The translations under genes and the position numbers were made by a program. Of a stretch of DNA of 64,000 nucleotides, positions 7,838-45,220 are shown in pieces. Numbering within the stretch: position 1 is the first letter of the stretch; each line of letters opens with the position of its first letter. Origin of the DNA: Methanomicrobiales archaeon HGW-Methanomicrobiales-1 (GTDB taxonomy: Archaea; Halobacteriota; Methanomicrobia; Methanomicrobiales; Methanospirillaceae); contig PGYM01000003.1 of NCBI GenBank assembly GCA_002839675.1, forward strand, positions 1-64,000, read 5' to 3'. Under the pieces are notes generated by a model. That model was given only the letters and a program-made list of their open reading frames with translations. It searched no databases and had not been told where the DNA came from.

Positions 7838-8782
7838 ATGCTGAGTGTTAACGAACTGGCACTGGAAATTTTTGATAATCTGGCCGACTTGGCCGAGGAA
7901 TTCAACGCTTGTTACCATGAACTGGATAACGGCGCACGTATCGTTGACTGCGGGGTAAGTGTACGCGGTGGTTATGCAGCAGGCAGGGCCTTTACCGAGA
8001 TCTGCATGGGCGGACTTGGCGAGGTTAACTTCCGCATGGGGCACATCAAGGAGTTCCCGATGCCCTTTGTCGATGTCACCACGGACTTCCCGTCGATCTC
8101 CTGCCTTGGTTCGCAGAAGGCCGGCTGGACCGTCAAGGTAGGCAACTACTTTGCGATGGGCAGCGGCCCGGCCCGGGCGCTCTCGTTAAAGCCGAAGCAC
8201 ACCTTTGAGGTCATCGAATACGAAGACGACTACGACTGTGCTGTCATGTGTCTTGAGAGCGACCACCTGCCGAACGCAGAGGTCATGGAGAAGATCGCAG
8301 AAGAGTGCCACGTGGATGTAGCAAATGTCTGTGCAGTTGTTGCACCCACTTCCTCATTAGTTGGCTCGATCCAGGTATCCGGCCGCTGTGTTGAGACCGC
8401 AATCTACAAGCTCAACGAACTTGGGTTTGACACCCGGAAGATCATTGCCGCTATGGGCACTGCACCGGTTCCACCGGTACGGGGACCCAAGCTTGCAATG
8501 GGGGTAACGAACGATGCCACGATCTACCACGGCAGGATCAACCTCACGATGAACGCACCCGAGATCAAGGACTACCTCGAGAAGATCCCGAGCAGCAGTT
8601 CCAAGGGATACGGCAAACCGTTCAACGACATCTTCAAGGAAGCAGGGTATGATTTCTACAAGATCGATACCTCGCTCTTCTCCCCCGCAGAAGTCATCAT
8701 AAACGAGCTCTCAACGGGCTCAGTCTACCATGTCGGTGCAGTGAATGCCGATGTGACCCTGAAGTCATTCGGGCTTCAGTAA
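7838..8782 (+). CDS. mch: Methenyl-tetrahydromethanopterin cyclohydrolase
   Basis: A 314-residue enzyme that interconverts formyl- and methenyl-tetrahydromethanopterin in the CO2-reducing methanogenesis pathway; cytoplasmic. Recognised from the N-terminus LSVNELALEIFDNL, the segments GGYAAGRAFTEICMGGL and GTAPVPPVRGPK, and the C-terminal STGSVYHVGAVNADVT. Length is normal. I start at ATG 7838; an open extension of seven codons runs through the upstream hairpin and does not match the family. A T run just after the stop probably terminates the message. Confidence 0.96.
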   Translation: MLSVNELALEIFDNLADLAEEFNACYHELDNGARIVDCGVSVRGGYAAGRAFTEICMGGLGEVNFRMGHIKEFPMPFVDVTTDFPSISCLGSQKAGWTVKVGNYFAMGSGPARALSLKPKHTFEVIEYEDDYDCAVMCLESDHLPNAEVMEKIAEECHVDVANVCAVVAPTSSLVGSIQVSGRCVETAIYKLNELGFDTRKIIAAMGTAPVPPVRGPKLAMGVTNDATIYHGRINLTMNAPEIKDYLEKIPSSSSKGYGKPFNDIFKEAGYDFYKIDTSLFSPAEVIINELSTGSVYHVGAVNADVTLKSFGLQ

Positions 8783-9054
8783 AATCTCTTTTTTTCCGGT
8801 TCATCTAAAAAAGATAGGAAATTTCCTTTCGGCATTCCTTGTGATTCTGGTTTTATACCATACCTGGTAAGGTTTAAAAAACAGCTTTGCGGGAATGCCA
8901 GCCTTTTTTTGTCTGCAAGCCCCGGGTGGAGATTTTTACCCCGGTGTTTCCTTACGTGAATATTTAAAAAATAGGGAGATTTTTTAATGCTGCGAGGTAT
9001 CGCCCGGGTTGTCATTTGCGGGAAATGATCTTCCCGGATTTCGTTTTTAAAAAT
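8783..9054. terminator. Convergent intergenic region with T runs and inverted repeats
   Basis: It lies between convergent mch and the lipoprotein gene. A T run begins 8 bases after the mch stop. A perfect palindrome AGGAAATTTCCT lies near 8816-8827, and GGCATTCC (8831-8838) pairs with GGAATGCC (8892-8899). Further T and A runs follow. This is best read as bidirectional termination; a short open frame on the plus strand at its right end overlaps the lipoprotein gene and is not a gene. Confidence 0.45.
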
Positions 9055-32181: not shown

Positions 32182-32633
32182 TAAACTATTTTTAGAAGAA
32201 AAAGGCTCAAACTCAATTTTAAGCATCGGTTATTTTCATACTTCTCATTAAAAAATATTGTAGAATGATCACGCGATCGAAATCGGAATAGATCCGTCCA
32301 TCCTCATGATTTGAGGGGAGGGGTATCCCTGCCCATCGCGTAGAAAATCAGTCACTCCCTCCTACTGGTCATGAGGGGGTACCCCCACCCCCCCTGTGGG
32401 CCGCGTCCGGCGTGAACAAAGTAAATTTTGTCAAATGTACAATTGATAATCAAGTGTACATTTGATTATCAATTGCACATCTTACCCGCGATTTTGGCAG
32501 TTGGATCTCAGCGTGCTGCAAAACCAGCACACCAAAAGGAATAATCAGGAAACAACCGGTTGCAATATGCCGACCATGTCAACACCCAAAAACCCCGGAA
32601 TTATTAAGCATCCGGCCAATCACATCATTGATC
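32182..32633. other. Structured intergenic region upstream of hps
   Basis: No gene seen. It contains a C/G-rich stretch (32310-32410) with the palindrome GGGGGTACCCCC, the tandem operator-like palindromes at 32435-32480, and a perfect hairpin GTGCTG/CAGCAC (32513-32530). A TATA-like AATTATTAAG near 32599-32608 could serve the next gene. The density of paired segments might indicate a leader or small RNA. Confidence 0.4.
32435..32480. promoter_or_regulatory. Tandem palindromic operator-like repeats
   Basis: Two 11-base palindromes, TTGATAATCAA (32443-32453) and TTGATTATCAA (32462-32472), have centres 19 bases apart and each follows TGTACA. The whole forms a 19-base inverted repeat with one mismatch around an 8-base spacer. 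The form is that of a repressor or activator site, about 150 bases before the Hps fusion gene. Confidence 0.55.
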
Positions 32634-33920
32634 ATGAATAAAGCGGTTCTGCAGGTGGCACTGGATCTTCTTGAATTGAAACGGGCTTTGCAGATCGCAC
32701 AGGAAGCCATCGACGGTGGTGCAGACTGGATTGAGGTCGGGACCCCTCTTATAAAAAGTGAAGGTATGGCTGCAGTCCGGGCGATGCGGGATCGTTTTCC
32801 CGATTCGGTAATTGTTGCGGATATGAAAATTGCCGATACCGGCGCTCTTGAAGTGGAAATGGCTGCCAAGGCCGGAGCAAATATTGTATGTGTGCTCGCT
32901 GATGCAGATGATGCGGTCATTGAAGATGCTATCAGGGCTGCACGGCTCTATGGAATTAGACTGATGGCGGATCTGATCAATGTCACAGATCCGATATCCC
33001 GTGCCGGCCAACTCGAAATCCTTGGAATTGATATAATCTGTGCCCATGTTGGCATAGATCAGCAGATGATCGGCAGGAATTCGATCGAACTCCTCTCTAC
33101 TCTTACCGACGCTGTTCACGTCCCCCTCGCTGTTGCTGGAGGTATCGATGCCTATAGTTCCGGAGATGCCGTACGATCTGGAGCAGATATCATCATTGTC
33201 GGGGGTAGTATTACTCGTTCGGCAGATGTTACCGGATCAACAAAAAAGATCCGTACCGCAATGGATAATCCCTCGATCAAAGCGATCGAAAAAAAATCGG
33301 CTGATGAAGAGATCCGTGCCCTCCTGATGCAGGTCTCTGCCCCCAACATCACGGATGCAATGCATCGTAAGGGGGCGATGGCCGGGATTTTTTCTGTTTG
33401 CGGGAATGTGAAAATGGTGGGAAAGGCAGTCACCGTCCAGACGCTCTCCGGGGACTGGGCAAAACCTGTAGAAGCCATCGATGTTGCCCGAAAAGGTGAC
33501 GTAATCGTGATCAACAACGATGGGTGTACGCATATTGCCCCGTGGGGAGAACTGGCAACCATGAGCTGCGTGAGTAAAGACCTGTCAGGAGTTGTCATTG
33601 ATGGTGCAGTACGCGATGTGGATGATATCCGGGCAATGAAATTTCCCGTTTTTGCAAAAGCAATTGTTCCGAATGCCGGTGAACCCAAAGGATTAGGGGA
33701 GATCAATGCTGAAATCCAGTGTGCCGGACAGAGTGTGTGCCCGGGTGACTGGATTGTTGGTGATGAAAGTGGAGTTGTTGTGATACCTGCTGTACGTGCA
33801 TATGAAGTTGCACGAAGAGCACTGGAAGTCAGGAAGAACGAAGAGCGTATTCGCGAAGAGATCCGCAGGGGAAGTACCCTTTCTAAAGTTGCAGAATTAA
33901 TAAAATGGGAAAAGAAGTGA
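32634..33920 (+). CDS. hps: Hexulose-6-phosphate synthase fused to RraA-like domain
   Basis: 428 residues. Residues 1-210 are an OMP-decarboxylase-like Hps domain with the metal/catalytic motif DMKIADTG and GGIDAYSSGDAVRSGA for phosphate binding. Residues ~225-400 are RraA/dimethylmenaquinone-methyltransferase-like (GDVIVINNDG, GVVIDGAVRD). In methanogens Hps releases formaldehyde from hexulose 6-phosphate to give ribulose 5-phosphate, a pentose source. The role of the RraA-like half is unclear, and this fusion is known. Start ATG 32634; TTG 32628 is also possible. Confidence 0.85.
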   Translation: MNKAVLQVALDLLELKRALQIAQEAIDGGADWIEVGTPLIKSEGMAAVRAMRDRFPDSVIVADMKIADTGALEVEMAAKAGANIVCVLADADDAVIEDAIRAARLYGIRLMADLINVTDPISRAGQLEILGIDIICAHVGIDQQMIGRNSIELLSTLTDAVHVPLAVAGGIDAYSSGDAVRSGADIIIVGGSITRSADVTGSTKKIRTAMDNPSIKAIEKKSADEEIRALLMQVSAPNITDAMHRKGAMAGIFSVCGNVKMVGKAVTVQTLSGDWAKPVEAIDVARKGDVIVINNDGCTHIAPWGELATMSCVSKDLSGVVIDGAVRDVDDIRAMKFPVFAKAIVPNAGEPKGLGEINAEIQCAGQSVCPGDWIVGDESGVVVIPAVRAYEVARRALEVRKNEERIREEIRRGSTLSKVAELIKWEKK

Positions 33921-36953: not shown

Positions 36954-37434
36954 CTTCGACCTCTGTTATGCTATCGCATGACAAACTATGTCGTGGCTAC
37001 GGTATATATCCACCGAAATTTCTGGATGATTCGAACACAAGAGACAGGATTCTGTAGGTTCACTATTTTGGCAAAACGGAAATTGTTTCAATGGTAGAAT
37101 TCCAAAAAACAAAACACTGGACCAATTGTCACCAAGACATTCTCACTGCAATCGATCTCCGGGAATTTTTTTTCAACAATACCTTGCCGTACGAGCCCGC
37201 CCCTTCACCTCAGAGAAAATGATCTGTTGTTAGATAATTATCCAACTGTTAGCAGCTTTACTAACACCCCCGTACCCTGATTGGAATTTTTTCAGCAGTG
37301 TCTGCTATGAAAATGTTTCAGAATACAAGGGTTCCGGAACATCCTTTTAAAATTATCCGGAAATGTACAACGATGATTTAATCTGTGGAAATGTGGTAGT
37401 AATTATCTGAATTGCGCTGGATCGTACGGGGTTT
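36954..37434. other. Intergenic region between paaK and solo cas1; no CRISPR
   Basis: The left part carries the paaK promoter: a TATA-like GGATATATACC on the minus strand (around 37000-37010) with purine-rich sequence before it. The right part is AT-rich with a small AGCA/TGCT hairpin near 37300. I looked for direct repeats with spacers on both strands because cas1 follows, and found none. No convincing open frame. Confidence 0.6.
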
Positions 37435-38367
37435 ATGGAAACGAATTATCCTTGGTTGTCGGTGAGTGGGTTTGGCTCTCACATCAAATCGACACAGACA
37501 AAATTAATTATCCAGAAAAAAAATGGCATCGAGGAATACTCTCTTGATGCTGTAAAAAACCTCCTTATAGTCGGTGGACACACGATTAGCTCGGCAACTA
37601 TTACCCAGCTGATAAAAAAAGGTGCAGTAATCTCATTTTTTGAACCTGATGGAAATCCGGTGGGGAGTATCAGTCCTTTTGGCTACCATAATGATTCGGA
37701 TATTTATCAGGCACAGCAGACCGAATCACGCCATCGCTTCGCAATGACAATTGCCCAGAGTGCCCTGAAGTCCCGCCTTGTCGCTATCAGCCGCTTACAG
37801 GAAGCACAGAGTGTATCCCTTTTTTATGAAGCTGAGTTAGATTTCCTTCACAAATCTTTAGAAGAAATGGCGTATCTCATCAAACTCGACGAGATCCGTC
37901 GCCTTCACCGTATGACTTCTGATATGTATTATGAGATAATGTCGCGTAACACCAAGCCGGAATTTGGATTCCGGAGAAGGACATTACGCCCTCAAACCGA
38001 TCCTATCAATGCAATGATCTCATTCGGCTATGCAATGCTGTTTGGCAATTGCTGTGTTTCACTGATAGGGGCGAGGCTGGATCCCGACATTGGCCTGTTG
38101 CACGAGGGGAAAGGAAGTCTGGTGAATGATATTGCCGAGTCAATGAAATCTGAAATGATCGATGAAGCAGTATTCAGGATCGCACGCGAGTCCCTCACCT
38201 CTGCCGACTTCGAACTCTCTCCTGACCGGTGCATGTTGTCTGATGAATTAGCCAGAAATCTCATTAAAACATTTCATGTTACCATAAACAATAAAAAAAT
38301 TGATGAACAGGTATCCAATCTCTCAAATGCGATAAGAAATAGTGGTGAATTCAAAGCGCTGTACTGA
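37435..38367 (+). CDS. cas1: Solo Cas1 family protein, altered active site
   Basis: 310 residues with the Cas1 layout: N-terminal beta domain (about 20-85, with NLLIVGGHTISSATI) and C-terminal helical domain. PEFGFRRRTLRP and DPINAMISFGYAML (189-202) are diagnostic. Of the metal ligands, H223 (GLLH) and D232/E235 (SLVNDIAES) are present, but the position of the first Glu (usual RGIEG) reads RRLHR, with His158. No cas2, cas4, other cas gene or CRISPR array lies in the window. Solo Cas1 groups have been described in methanogens; casposases also have Cas1 but add DNA-binding domains not seen here. It converges on acylphosphatase, overlapping by 17 bases. Confidence 0.88.
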   Translation: METNYPWLSVSGFGSHIKSTQTKLIIQKKNGIEEYSLDAVKNLLIVGGHTISSATITQLIKKGAVISFFEPDGNPVGSISPFGYHNDSDIYQAQQTESRHRFAMTIAQSALKSRLVAISRLQEAQSVSLFYEAELDFLHKSLEEMAYLIKLDEIRRLHRMTSDMYYEIMSRNTKPEFGFRRRTLRPQTDPINAMISFGYAMLFGNCCVSLIGARLDPDIGLLHEGKGSLVNDIAESMKSEMIDEAVFRIARESLTSADFELSPDRCMLSDELARNLIKTFHVTINNKKIDEQVSNLSNAIRNSGEFKALY

Positions 38368-38647
38368 TACGCCCCTCTCCTTTGATGATTGAAAAGTCAT
38401 CAAAGGCCTTTAACGGTATCTCCGATTGCCGGAGATCCCTGATAACTGCACGGGGACAACCATACACCATTGAAACAAATTTTTCAAGAATCATCAGCTC
38501 GCCCGTTGCATAGATGTGAACCCTTCCATCCGGCAGGTTCATTACTGTCCCGGATACTTTCAAATCGGTAGCGATTCTTCGCACGCATGCCCTGAATCCG
38601 ACTTTCTGGACCCTTCCTGAGATGAAGATCTCGATTGTCCTCATCAT
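38351..38647 (-). CDS. acyP: Acylphosphatase
   Basis: 98 residues hydrolysing carboxyl-phosphate bonds. The active-site loop GRVQKVGFRACVRR supplies the phosphate-binding arginine, and GTVMNLPDG the asparagine. Its ATG overlaps the stop of the 1185-residue protein by one base (TGATG), so it is translated with it. Confidence 0.92.
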   Translation of the reverse strand: MMRTIEIFISGRVQKVGFRACVRRIATDLKVSGTVMNLPDGRVHIYATGELMILEKFVSMVYGCPRAVIRDLRQSEIPLKAFDDFSIIKGEGRISTAL

Positions 38648-41600
38648 CAGATCTCCTGCATTATCTTAATCGCAAGCCCGAGTTCATCGAATACTTCATC
38701 GCGCAGTGCTGACTGGCGTATATTGGTCGCTGCGTCAATGGCAGAATCGAGCACTTCCTGAGCTTCGCTTTCACAGCCTGCAGCATGACTCTTCATTGCA
38801 ATATCGCACATCACATAAGCCCTTCGGGAGAGTGGCCGGATAATCCGTGCTTCTTTCATTGCACTTTGCAGCATGCGCTTTGAGAGTTTTCCATTCCCTT
38901 CCTGCCGGAAAAGGATCGAAAGATTACAGAAAAAGATTGCTTCTTTTCCACGATCGGCTATTGAACTGACGATACGTTCAAGTGAGGCGATCTGATTGGG
39001 CTGAGCACCGTCATCTAAAATTTTTTCGGTCATCGCCCTGATTTTACTATACTGGGGGGAGATCTCATAAGACTCTTTTTGCCCCATTTGCGTGAGGCGG
39101 TGAAGTCTTAACCTGTCATCGTCAATAGTCCGCGTTGTTTCAATGGCGTAGCGGAGGTATTTCTTATCGCTGTGCGTTGTGTACAGCATCGAATACACTT
39201 GGGCGACATTGTCGCGGATGGTATCTGCGATATACTGGATGTTGATGTTTTTTGTCAATGCATCTGCCTTTTTTAGTAACGGCATAAATGCATCATCTTT
39301 ATTGCATTGCAGTGCGAGCGGGACAATATCAAGGATAACTGATGCCTGTTCATACGGTGAATGGATCTGTTCTGTTGCCCCCACCATAAGGGTGAGCAAT
39401 TCAGCACATCGATCATCATCGTTAATTACCATTCGGGACATGGCAATGAGCGATTTGATGTAATCGACCGGTTCTTTGATTTCGGATACGATGTCGAATG
39501 CAATATTGATTAAGGAATCATCGGAGGTGGCGGTATTCAGGCTGGCGATGGCAAAAACAATCTGTCTCCGTGCTATCCCACTATCGGGGAATTCTGCGCT
39601 ATTCAGGATCTGGATTCCTTCATCAAGGCATTTTTTTGCCATTTTCTGATCGATGGGACCAAACAGTGTGGTCAGGTCAGCTAAAATCAATACTTTCTGA
39701 TATTCTGTGGGAAGTTTTTCCAGTGAACCTGATACTTCTTTCAGAATTTCAATAGACCAGTCCGGATCTCCTGACTTGAACACGGAATCTGCAAGATTTA
39801 ACAATCCTGTGAGACGATTGTAAGGATCTTGTATCAGGTGGAGGACCCGGAATATCAGGTTAATAGAAACCGGATTGGATTGTGCCTGTTCCGATCTCTG
39901 AAGAAGGTAGGCCAGAATCTCGTAAGGATCGGTTGAACCCGGGAAGGGAGTTTCATCATTGAGATTCGAAATAATACGGGACATCATTGCATCCCTTTCT
40001 AATGCATTGCTGATCTCCAGAGAGTACATCGCCAGCGGGATAATAAAATCCGGATTATCGCTCGTTTTTGAATACGAGAGAATCACATCGATTAACCCGG
40101 CAATCTTAAGCGAGATTTGCGGTGTTTTTACATTCTTTTTGATTATTTCCAGTCCGCGCTCAAACGGAGGAACCGCATCTGAAAAATTTTGCAGGGGTGG
40201 CAAAATCTTTGGTTCTTTGAGCAGGATACATCCAATCTTAATAAAACACTCTGCAATACGTTCGAATAATTGGGTTTTTAATGCAGGATCTTCGATTTTC
40301 TGTGCGATCAGGTATGCCTTTTCGAGAGCGTCAGGTGAACGGTTATCAATTGCGTATTTTATCACACCCTCGATAATGTTTGCCATTGCATACGCTGCAA
40401 GATCTTTTTCGAGAAGGGAGTTGCTCCATTTTTCCATTCTCAAAAGGAGATCAAGATCTCCCTGGTGCGCTGCCAGGATCGCGGCTTCATCAATAATCCT
40501 GCTCAAAGTGGCTGAACGGGTATTCTGTCCATCAATCTGACAGGTAAGCCCGACTGCTCTCTGGAGGAAATCGCGGTTATTTATCTGCACACCGATCTGG
40601 GCAATTTTTATGACAATGCTTGAAATAGCTCGCTCTTTTAATGACAATTCTGTGATCGAATCTGCAAGTTTAATCAGGATGCCCGGTTCAAGAGCATCCA
40701 GAAATCCCCTGTCCACAAGAAGGGTGATGCACTCAAGAAAGAGAGGATCCCTTCGGGGGTGTAAGTTGATTAGTTCTTTCATGGAATGGATATGGGGGAC
40801 TATCTCATCAAATGGAGAATTCCGGGAAATTTCAACTGCTGCATGGTATACGGCATTATGAGAAATTTCTGCGGGGATATTCTGGAGAATTGAACTATTA
40901 ATTTTTGCAATGGAATTTTTTATTACCCCTGCCTTCAGAAGGTTTGTTAAACAATCTGTGTAGAGCGTAATATTTTCTGATTCATGATTGACTTTCCCAA
41001 ATACATTGAGCGCTGATTCAAAATTTCCTGAACCCAGCATAATCTGGGAAAACTGAAGATAGACCCGGGATAAATATACCGTATTGCAGTTCTTTTCAAT
41101 AATAGGAATGAGATCAGAAAGCACGTTAATTTCATTAGAACTGCGAGAAACTGAAATACCCGCCTTAATTATCTCCTTTATTGGATATTTGTCGGGATTT
41201 GAAATCAGCTGCTGAAGTTGCATTGCAGATTCAAAATACCAGGTATCCCCGGACTGTTCCGCTTTCCTGAGAAGATCAATGACAAGAGTCTCTGTTACAA
41301 AAGGCAGGGTTTCGCAGAGGGACTGAAGTACTCTGGCGATCTGTTTTTTATCCTTTTCGCGATCGAGAAGCTGATCAACCAGGGCGCTGATAATCTCGAG
41401 TTGATTATCTGAATTACTATCGTTAAAGTGTTGGATAAATGCCGGGATATCGGATATATCCCGGGAAAAAGCAGATTTTATCCCTTTCTCCACAATTGAA
41501 TTGATACAGTTCTGCCTGCGGATCTTCTGGTGGATATCGGTCGCAATTCTGATACTATCAAGGAATAATGGGCAATTTTTTTCCAGAATCGCAATGGTTG

Positions 41601-42204
41601 CGATTGCTTTTGCAAGTTCGGAATGAAGGACCGCTCGTTTTGAGATATCACTTATGTCTTCTATGAGACTGAGTGAAGTACGGAGACGTTTTTCATCCCG
41701 CGTTGTGATCGCCCAGACAATCAGAAGGGGAATGATATCGATCATGATATCGGAGCGGTATTTCCGGAAACTGATCCGATCGAGCATAATCATGCCCAGT
41801 TTGATGAACGAAGGATCTGAATGAGAAACCCCTGCTTCAATGAGATCCCGTGCCATCAATGCAAACACGCGGGACTGATAACTTTTTTTGCCTAATATCT
41901 CGGACAGGAATTGAAGAGATTTAAGCCATGTATCATTTTTTGTTTTAATATACTGACAAAGAATACCCGAGAATAAATCCTCTATTTCATTGCTCGGAAT
42001 ATTGGCAATGGCGTATAAAAATGCTGGATTGTTTGTTTTGATGGCTTTATCAACAAGGAGATGATTCAGATCGGAAACAATTGTTTTTCTGGCATGTCGC
42101 CCCTGATTCAGGTGCAGCTCCTCAATGCTATCCCTGACGCTCTTCCAATCCTCTGCTGATAGCGCCTGCTGAATCTTATCGATTATTTCGGTGGGTTTAA
42201 CCAT
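38647..42204 (-). CDS. Giant helical-repeat protein, unknown
   Basis: 1185 residues, predicted almost entirely alpha-helical. It has no signal peptide or membrane helix. The sequence runs through many degenerate helix pairs of about 30-40 residues, in the style of TPR/HEAT solenoids, with recurrent small-hydrophobic patterns, e.g. RDEVFDELGLAIKI near the end. I see no enzyme motif and no nucleotide-binding loop. Such solenoids usually scaffold proteins or nucleic acids. It is coupled to acylphosphatase and faces the solo cas1 gene. I do not recognise the family. Confidence 0.7.
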   Translation of the reverse strand: MVKPTEIIDKIQQALSAEDWKSVRDSIEELHLNQGRHARKTIVSDLNHLLVDKAIKTNNPAFLYAIANIPSNEIEDLFSGILCQYIKTKNDTWLKSLQFLSEILGKKSYQSRVFALMARDLIEAGVSHSDPSFIKLGMIMLDRISFRKYRSDIMIDIIPLLIVWAITTRDEKRLRTSLSLIEDISDISKRAVLHSELAKAIATIAILEKNCPLFLDSIRIATDIHQKIRRQNCINSIVEKGIKSAFSRDISDIPAFIQHFNDSNSDNQLEIISALVDQLLDREKDKKQIARVLQSLCETLPFVTETLVIDLLRKAEQSGDTWYFESAMQLQQLISNPDKYPIKEIIKAGISVSRSSNEINVLSDLIPIIEKNCNTVYLSRVYLQFSQIMLGSGNFESALNVFGKVNHESENITLYTDCLTNLLKAGVIKNSIAKINSSILQNIPAEISHNAVYHAAVEISRNSPFDEIVPHIHSMKELINLHPRRDPLFLECITLLVDRGFLDALEPGILIKLADSITELSLKERAISSIVIKIAQIGVQINNRDFLQRAVGLTCQIDGQNTRSATLSRIIDEAAILAAHQGDLDLLLRMEKWSNSLLEKDLAAYAMANIIEGVIKYAIDNRSPDALEKAYLIAQKIEDPALKTQLFERIAECFIKIGCILLKEPKILPPLQNFSDAVPPFERGLEIIKKNVKTPQISLKIAGLIDVILSYSKTSDNPDFIIPLAMYSLEISNALERDAMMSRIISNLNDETPFPGSTDPYEILAYLLQRSEQAQSNPVSINLIFRVLHLIQDPYNRLTGLLNLADSVFKSGDPDWSIEILKEVSGSLEKLPTEYQKVLILADLTTLFGPIDQKMAKKCLDEGIQILNSAEFPDSGIARRQIVFAIASLNTATSDDSLINIAFDIVSEIKEPVDYIKSLIAMSRMVINDDDRCAELLTLMVGATEQIHSPYEQASVILDIVPLALQCNKDDAFMPLLKKADALTKNINIQYIADTIRDNVAQVYSMLYTTHSDKKYLRYAIETTRTIDDDRLRLHRLTQMGQKESYEISPQYSKIRAMTEKILDDGAQPNQIASLERIVSSIADRGKEAIFFCNLSILFRQEGNGKLSKRMLQSAMKEARIIRPLSRRAYVMCDIAMKSHAAGCESEAQEVLDSAIDAATNIRQSALRDEVFDELGLAIKIMQEI

Positions 42205-43868: not shown

Positions 43869-44285
43869 TTAAGGACAAAAATCTTCAAAGGAATTGAGTG
43901 ATGCAAGCACTTCATCAAGTCTTGGGTTGGACAGGACACAATGATCAGTTTCGAGATTTCCAATAACTATTCTGGGGTATGCTATCTGTTTGAACCCTTC
44001 GATAACGGTGAAATTCATACCCTGGTCGAAAAGAAGTCTTAATGTGCCCTCTAATGAATTGTTACGTATCGCAGCTACGGATTTATCAGCGTCGATCCCT
44101 ACGGAAACATCAGCACCGGCTTCAAAAAAACCGGTAGTGTCTTTTCCCTCTTCAAGAACATACTCGTGATCCCCGAGATGCTTGATCACTGCAACATGCC
44201 CTTTTGTTTTGAGTATAGGGATAAGCTGTTTGATGAAGGTGGTTTTACCGGAATTTGATCTTCCTACAACCTGAATTATCTTCAT
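43869..44285 (-). CDS. mobB: Molybdopterin-guanine dinucleotide biosynthesis protein MobB
   Basis: 138-residue P-loop GTPase-like protein, Walker A GRSNSGKTT (8-16). VAVIKHLGDHE and FTVIEGFKQIAYPRIV are family landmarks. It helps nucleotide attachment to molybdopterin, used by formylmethanofuran and formate dehydrogenases in methanogens. Its ATG overlaps the preceding stop as ATGA. Confidence 0.87.
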   Translation of the reverse strand: MKIIQVVGRSNSGKTTFIKQLIPILKTKGHVAVIKHLGDHEYVLEEGKDTTGFFEAGADVSVGIDADKSVAAIRNNSLEGTLRLLFDQGMNFTVIEGFKQIAYPRIVIGNLETDHCVLSNPRLDEVLASLNSFEDFCP

Positions 44286-45175
44286 GGGGTTTCATCTCCT
44301 GTAATGTCGGGATCTTCTTTTACGGGGCTGATATCTTGAATATTTTCCTGATTTTTATTTATTAGCGTGAGGACCGTTGTTGAAAGAGGGGAAATCATTT
44401 CCTGTTCATGATCACTCGATGGTGAAGTAATGACAGGAAAATTTACGGCCGATTCATCGCTATGAATGGCCGTTGTTTCCAAATCCCCGGGCGAAACGTC
44501 CACTCTGTCCGGAGATAGCGGCTCCGTACGGGTGCCTTCTGTAGGAACCGTTTCTTTTGTTTTCCTTCGTCTCTTTGTTTTTTGCTGTGTCGATATATCC
44601 GTTTCTAAAGGGGCTGTTATTTTTTCTGTTATGTCGGGTTTTCCCTGGGGTATGGCCCCTGTTTCGGTATCTTCTGCTCTTGTCCGGAGTATTGTTTTTG
44701 CTGCTTCTCCGACACTTCGCATGACCTTGGTGATGCGATCCTCTATATCGATCTCTTCATCGATATCCAGGGTTGTGCCTTCGACTTCCAATAAAAATCG
44801 TGCAACTTCGCTGGCTTCAAAGAGCAGATCGTCGAGTTCATCGGTAGTAAAAAATCCACACATTGCTCCATAAAAAAATGTGGCACTCGATTTACGCACC
44901 TTTTTTTTGAAAGAATTGCGTGCCTGGTTCACTGCCTGGGGAGTATAGGTATCCTCCATAAAAGGGACAAGTTCCGGCAGATGGTTTCCGATAAAGGTCA
45001 TTTCAGCTCCACCGGATGTGCGGAAATCAGTGCACAGGCGTGCAAGCGCCCATTCACGGGCCGTTATATAGGTCCTTTTGCGTAAAAACTGGTTTACCTT
45101 GCGATAGGTTGCTCCATCGACTTTCTTGAATTTTTTATATTTATTGATCTCCTGCTGGATATTTGCGTTGTCCAT
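44282..45175 (-). CDS. DUF5806 family protein with low-complexity tail
   Basis: 297 residues. The N-terminal ~165 residues (QFLRKRTYITAREWALARLC through FFYGAMCGFFTTDELDDLL) are conserved in methanogens and match what I know as DUF5806. The rest is a Thr/Ser/Pro/Lys-rich, probably disordered tail with a basic stretch TKRRRKTKE. Start ATG 45175, eight bases after AAGGTG; earlier codons in the open frame lie beyond that site. Function unknown. Coupled to mobB. Confidence 0.72.
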   Translation of the reverse strand: MDNANIQQEINKYKKFKKVDGATYRKVNQFLRKRTYITAREWALARLCTDFRTSGGAEMTFIGNHLPELVPFMEDTYTPQAVNQARNSFKKKVRKSSATFFYGAMCGFFTTDELDDLLFEASEVARFLLEVEGTTLDIDEEIDIEDRITKVMRSVGEAAKTILRTRAEDTETGAIPQGKPDITEKITAPLETDISTQQKTKRRRKTKETVPTEGTRTEPLSPDRVDVSPGDLETTAIHSDESAVNFPVITSPSSDHEQEMISPLSTTVLTLINKNQENIQDISPVKEDPDITGDETP

Positions 45176-45220
45176 TATCATACACCTTTCAAGAATTGGT
45201 TTATCCCCGTATGGGAACAT

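Follow-up and report, generated by a model that had tools for sequence, protein, structure and literature searches.

The stretch of DNA analyzed here, 64,000 nucleotides in length (the window), carries on its forward strand a gene for Cas1, the enzyme whose usual task is to insert CRISPR memories. The coordinates of this gene, cas1-solo, of the codons discussed below and of the flanking features are collected in Table 1. Cas1 (PF01867) was the sole Pfam domain found in the protein, with a match spanning residues 10–280 (E = 1.8e-54), and the TIGR00287 score of 153 bits exceeded the cut-off of 71.7. An AlphaFold2 model built from a 55-row family alignment reached a mean pLDDT of 92.3 and a pTM of 0.88, and its top structural matches, in Foldseek likewise, were Cas1 chains that each covered nearly the whole model: 7cr6, a Synechocystis Cas1-Cas2-prespacer complex, with the best Z of 29.5, the casposase 6opm with 29.3, and 7mi4 with 28.9. 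The protein thus belongs to the Cas1 family by full-length sequence and by fold, the whole two-domain Cas1 fold is kept, and the identification as Cas1 made in an earlier note on this DNA was correct.

Table 1. Features at the cas1-solo locus (window coordinates)
Feature	Position	Strand	Remarks
Intergenic region	36954..37434	.	Between divergent phenylacetate-CoA-ligase-type gene and cas1-solo; putative promoter
cas1-solo (group 1) ORF	37435..38367	+	310 aa, full-length Cas1 fold; ATG at 37435, stop ends 38367
Codon Arg156	37900..37902	+	141/141 in solo family; Gly in most CRISPR Cas1
Codon His158	37906..37908	+	Column of catalytic Glu (E. coli E141); His in 78/141 family members
Codon His223	38101..38103	+	Column of catalytic His (E. 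coli H208); 82/141 His
Codon Asp232	38128..38130	+	Column of E. coli D218; 139/141 Asp
Codon Glu235	38137..38139	+	Column of E. coli D221; 132/141 Glu or Asp
Acylphosphatase, 98 aa	38351..38647	-	Convergent; conserved downstream neighbour, not operon partner

Genomic context

Neither a CRISPR array nor a member of the Cas2 and Cas4 families was found in the window, this genome's matches to both families lying outside it, and these array and family searches agree with the earlier note, which had seen no cas2, array or other cas gene. Its broader wording, that no CRISPR is nearby, holds for the window and fails for the genome: the same contig (C3) carries a complete type I-C locus (cas3-cas5c-cas8c-cas7c-cas4-cas1c-cas2c) with an array of at least 37 repeats, approximately 129 kb from the solo gene. 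The solo gene itself has no adjacent cas2 or array of the kind that marks an adaptation Cas1.

We compared 57 loci, which cover each of the order's six families, with neighbours called by a simple longest-ORF procedure, and found that synteny around cas1-solo was stable across much of the order. The upstream gene was divergent in 42 of the 57 (two phenylacetate-CoA-ligase-type genes in the genus of the window), and a convergent acylphosphatase lay downstream in about 42. In the window, cas1-solo and the oppositely oriented acylphosphatase share 17 bases at their 3′ ends (38351–38367), and overlaps of 4–19 bases occurred in 26 of 41 loci. No same-strand partner recurred in the 57 loci, and neither a cas gene nor polB was present among the nine neighbours scanned, nor was a transposon partner found nearby. 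Both flanking genes were rejected as operon partners, the one being divergent and the other convergent with an overlap of up to 19 bases, and from this arrangement we concluded that cas1-solo is mostly a lone transcription unit.

Three further genes of the window were recorded. A 1185-aa protein without a Pfam match, which to the eye resembles helical repeats, adjoins the acylphosphatase (38647–42204, reverse strand) and recurs in 28 of the 57 loci; a DUF5806 protein (44282–45220, reverse strand) is syntenic in 32; and a 430-aa protein that joins an OMPdecase/HUMPS-type domain to an RraA-like domain is encoded at 32628–33920 on the forward strand.

Active-site columns and the arginine cluster

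When the window protein was aligned by HMMER with the sequences of four Cas1 structures (PDB 7cr6, 4xtk, 7ei1 and 4wj0), His158 fell in the column of the catalytic Glu without a nearby gap, and His223 and Asp232 fell in the catalytic columns where they were expected. A joint alignment with CRISPR Cas1 of the phylum, in which columns 158, 223 and 232 were Glu, His and Asp in 36 of 36 sequences and column 235 was Glu or Asp in all 36, gave the same result for position 158, in support of the claim in the earlier note that a His sits where the metal-binding Glu should be. Glu153, the acid which that note had thought might occupy the metal site after all, is conserved in the family, yet its column, five residues ahead of that of the catalytic Glu, is variable in CRISPR Cas1, and Glu153 was rejected as the residue that binds the metal.

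Across 141 distinct relatives, position 158 was His in 78, Ser in 28, Phe in 10, Glu in 8 and Tyr in 7, with a few Asn, Gln, Ala, Leu or Asp, while position 223 was His in 82, Tyr and Asn in 14 each, Ser and Arg in 11 each, and other residues in the remainder. Position 235 was Glu in 83 and Asp in 49. Asp232 has stayed fixed, being present in 139, and some metal binding may therefore persist. The combination seen in the window protein (H158-H223-D232 with Glu or Asp at 235) occurred in 46 of the 141 sequences, and the full E-H-D-E set only at locus L094. This locus (coordinates 7969–8895) lies in a Lac Pavin MAG (genome G161), and other members of the same genus have E-N-D-E or E-K-D-E.

On a tree of 81 members, the minimum number of changes was 19 at position 158, 28 at position 223 and 2 at position 232. 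His158 and His223 were uncoupled (Fisher p = 0.86), and a paired-His metal site was rejected on the ground that the two residues vary independently. Site rates pointed the same way: all four catalytic sites were among the slowest few per cent in CRISPR Cas1, whereas in the solo family position 223 evolved at the median rate, 235 outpaced 43% of sites, and 158 outpaced 33%, a rate far higher than that of the fixed sites. The Glu-His-Asp-Asp/Glu metal site of a catalytic Cas1 is therefore missing from the window protein, which has His158 for Glu, and is eroded family-wide; the metal-holding residues have drifted at positions 158 and 223 and partly at 235. The Glu at position 158 has been lost and the position has relaxed. 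Given the variability of this position, its many changes and the absence of coupling to His223, His is the residue found most often where constraint has relaxed and not a conserved new ligand; it is not present throughout the clade, a point on which the earlier note had asked for a check, and the defined new chemistry which that note attached to it did not hold up.

In the solo family, the GIEG motif of CRISPR Cas1 is replaced by RR[LIV]x[RK]. Comparing the frequency of Lys or Arg in the solo family with that in CRISPR Cas1, we found gains at R155 (88% vs 23%), R156 (100% vs 0), R159 (80% vs 0), R171 (100% vs 23%), R180 (91% vs 14%), R181 (97% vs 14%) and R185 (82% vs 34%), and, by position along the chain, these seven family-specific arginines flank the former active site. 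The adjoining R182 is nearly universal in both groups and belongs, with Y165, N192 and D243, to the residues found in all CRISPR Cas1 examined that the solo family still keeps. Conserved non-catalytic residues specific to the family are W7, E134, M164, E167, R265 and C266. Basic residues have gone from positions 19, 104, 123, 184, 273 and 283, which are Lys or Arg in 69–91% of CRISPR Cas1, and the family is acidic, with a mean pI of 6.3, whereas CRISPR Cas1 from this order averages 8.1 (net charge, Mann-Whitney p = 4e-9, for related and thus not independent sequences). This acidity and the lost basic positions argue against a generic DNA-binding role.

Distribution, selection and descent

A protein search of one genome per species found relatives in 217 of the 232 genomes of the order, divergent genera included, and in 133 of the 135 that are near-complete, which bears out the description in the earlier note of a conserved Cas1 outside CRISPR. 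No internal stops were present among the family matches listed. In genomes drawn from the phylum beyond the order, scores to the family profile were 160 bits or less, compared with about 300 or more for near-full-length members inside it. Named records of the family come from Methanoregula (the nearest to the window protein), Methanoculleus, Methanolinea, Methanocalculus, Methanogenium, related MAGs and unplaced Euryarchaeota MAGs, so that the family is confined to Methanomicrobiales with one exception among named records, locus L173. The cas1-solo at that locus resembles those of Methanoregula but comes from a MAG with the title Geobacter sp. UBA4074; the bin is probably mixed or wrongly labelled.

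Among the near-complete genomes, the main Cas2 family was found in 68, type I-E Cas2 in 27, and both together in 14; 81 of the 135 thus have Cas2 and 54 lack it. The two near-complete genomes without the solo gene (G005 and G134) are both among these 54, so the gene is kept in 52 of the 54 and, with Cas2 in just 81, it has no obligate Cas2 partner. Cas4 was likewise rejected as a universal partner, with Cas4-type matches in 95 of the 135, many of them weak or inside long ORFs. As for viral carriage, no relative was found in IMG/VR using profile-derived patterns, which divergent copies could escape.

We estimated dN/dS for 17 pairs of close relatives by the Nei-Gojobori method (NG86, a simple estimator): 15 pairs fell between 0.036 and 0.16, one gave 0.21, and one was saturated at synonymous sites. 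Selection is thus purifying, the second matter that the earlier note had proposed to check, and with values mostly of 0.04–0.16 the gene is not vestigial. Across the order, 28 positions are at least 97% identical. We concluded that in Methanomicrobiales the solo gene is housekeeping-like, nearly always single-copy and kept regardless of CRISPR.

In a tree built without columns 158 and 223, by a quick search with one matrix and no mixture model, the 81 members formed one clade apart from CRISPR Cas1 (SH-aLRT 100); two long branches (L052 and L053) may be misplaced. As to horizontal transfer, the family is one clade with stable synteny, yet this quick tree does not recover some of the order's families as monophyletic. 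Agreement with the species tree has been reported to be better for solo cas1 genes than for those of CRISPR loci (PMC5704561), and Cas1-solo group 1 was described as restricted to Methanomicrobiales, with no evidence that it had been horizontally transferred (Krupovic 2014, PMC4046053).

Proposed role and known systems

The reading we favour, at a probability of about one half, is that solo Cas1 is non-catalytic and that its arginine pocket binds a phosphate ligand, likeliest a DNA end, the protein being a dimeric binder of DNA structures in genome maintenance. The protein would no longer cut or join DNA. The arginine side chains may have taken over charge neutralisation from the metal, a step suggested by their adjacency in sequence, and would have turned the old active-site region into a metal-independent pocket that holds a phosphate-bearing ligand and performs no chemistry. 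That ligand would most likely be a DNA end that is branched or broken; branched DNA is a substrate of E. coli Cas1 (PMC4046053), a fact that supports a DNA-structure role by analogy only. More tentative is the extended claim of an order-wide core pseudo-integrase, in which an invariant arginine cluster has replaced the metal and metal-free DNA-structure binding serves genome maintenance independently of CRISPR; we hold this to be possible and not probable.

A lesser chance goes to a role away from nucleic acids, with the protein a dimeric structural or protein-interaction module whose conserved arginines serve to bind a partner protein or a small phosphorylated ligand. Its acidity, the lost basic positions and the family-specific set from W7 to C266 would fit such a role, while the retention of Y165, R182, N192 and D243 and an arginine cluster that would lie beside the old DNA-processing site speak against it. 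The changed chemistry of the earlier note, that is, an enzyme still active at a metal site re-made with His158 and/or other ligands, is improbable: the recurrent four-residue combination, the nearly invariant D232 and the full set at L094 can be cited for it, and they are opposed by the Ser, Phe, Tyr, Leu, Ala and Gln also found at 158, by the uncoupled histidines and by the repeated changes at both positions. We are equally doubtful that the protein regulates the cell's active Cas1 or casposases, for instance by forming mixed dimers in which it is dominant-negative: the shared fold, the lost active site and the active-looking I-C Cas1 in its own genome are set against retention in nearly all near-complete genomes that lack any Cas2, the absence of linkage to cas loci and an identity to the local Cas1 of just 27% over the aligned part. 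Decay as a vestigial gene, a view of these solo genes repeated as probable in PMC9755687, accounts for the lost catalytic residues and is very improbable, contradicted as it is by the dN/dS values and the near-identical positions, and by intact frames among the matches listed.

Returning to the favoured reading of a non-catalytic binder, a CRISPR-type protein would here have a core cellular role. Retention across almost the whole order, strong purifying selection, cas2 independence and the arginine signature indicate a working gene, and its role could be probed at R156, R171, R181 and R265, with the relaxed positions 158 and 223 as controls. The literature since 2013–14 has set Cas1-solo group 1 aside as inactive or probably vestigial; the earlier source for the group is reportedly Makarova in 2013. 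Our literature search found no functional study of Cas1-solo group 1. The group itself and its lack of a full active site are already published (PMC4046053), while the residue survey, selection, near-universality, arginine cluster and cas2 independence are new.

The window protein is a member of Cas1-solo group 1, with which it shares the order, the absence of CRISPR linkage, the incomplete quartet (140 of 141 relatives, the window protein included) and the distinct clade. L094, with E-H-D-E, is an exception to the published statement that no member has the full catalytic set, made in a paper that set the group aside (PMC4046053). Type III-linked Cas1 (L224 and L125) are among the best-scoring CRISPR relatives by profile (approximately 145–160 bits), but have the full E/H/D/E set, adjacent cas2 and type III genes, and GIEG in place of the solo motif. 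Casposases (Cas1-solo group 2, 6opm) share the fold and the lack of an adjoining CRISPR array; however, their catalytic quartet is intact and polB accompanies them (PMC4046053), and the solo gene shows neither feature. The type I-C Cas1 of the same genome (C3, ~166.4–167.4 kb) is of the same family, but has the canonical RGIEG and adjoins cas2, cas4 and the array, all of which the solo Cas1 does without.
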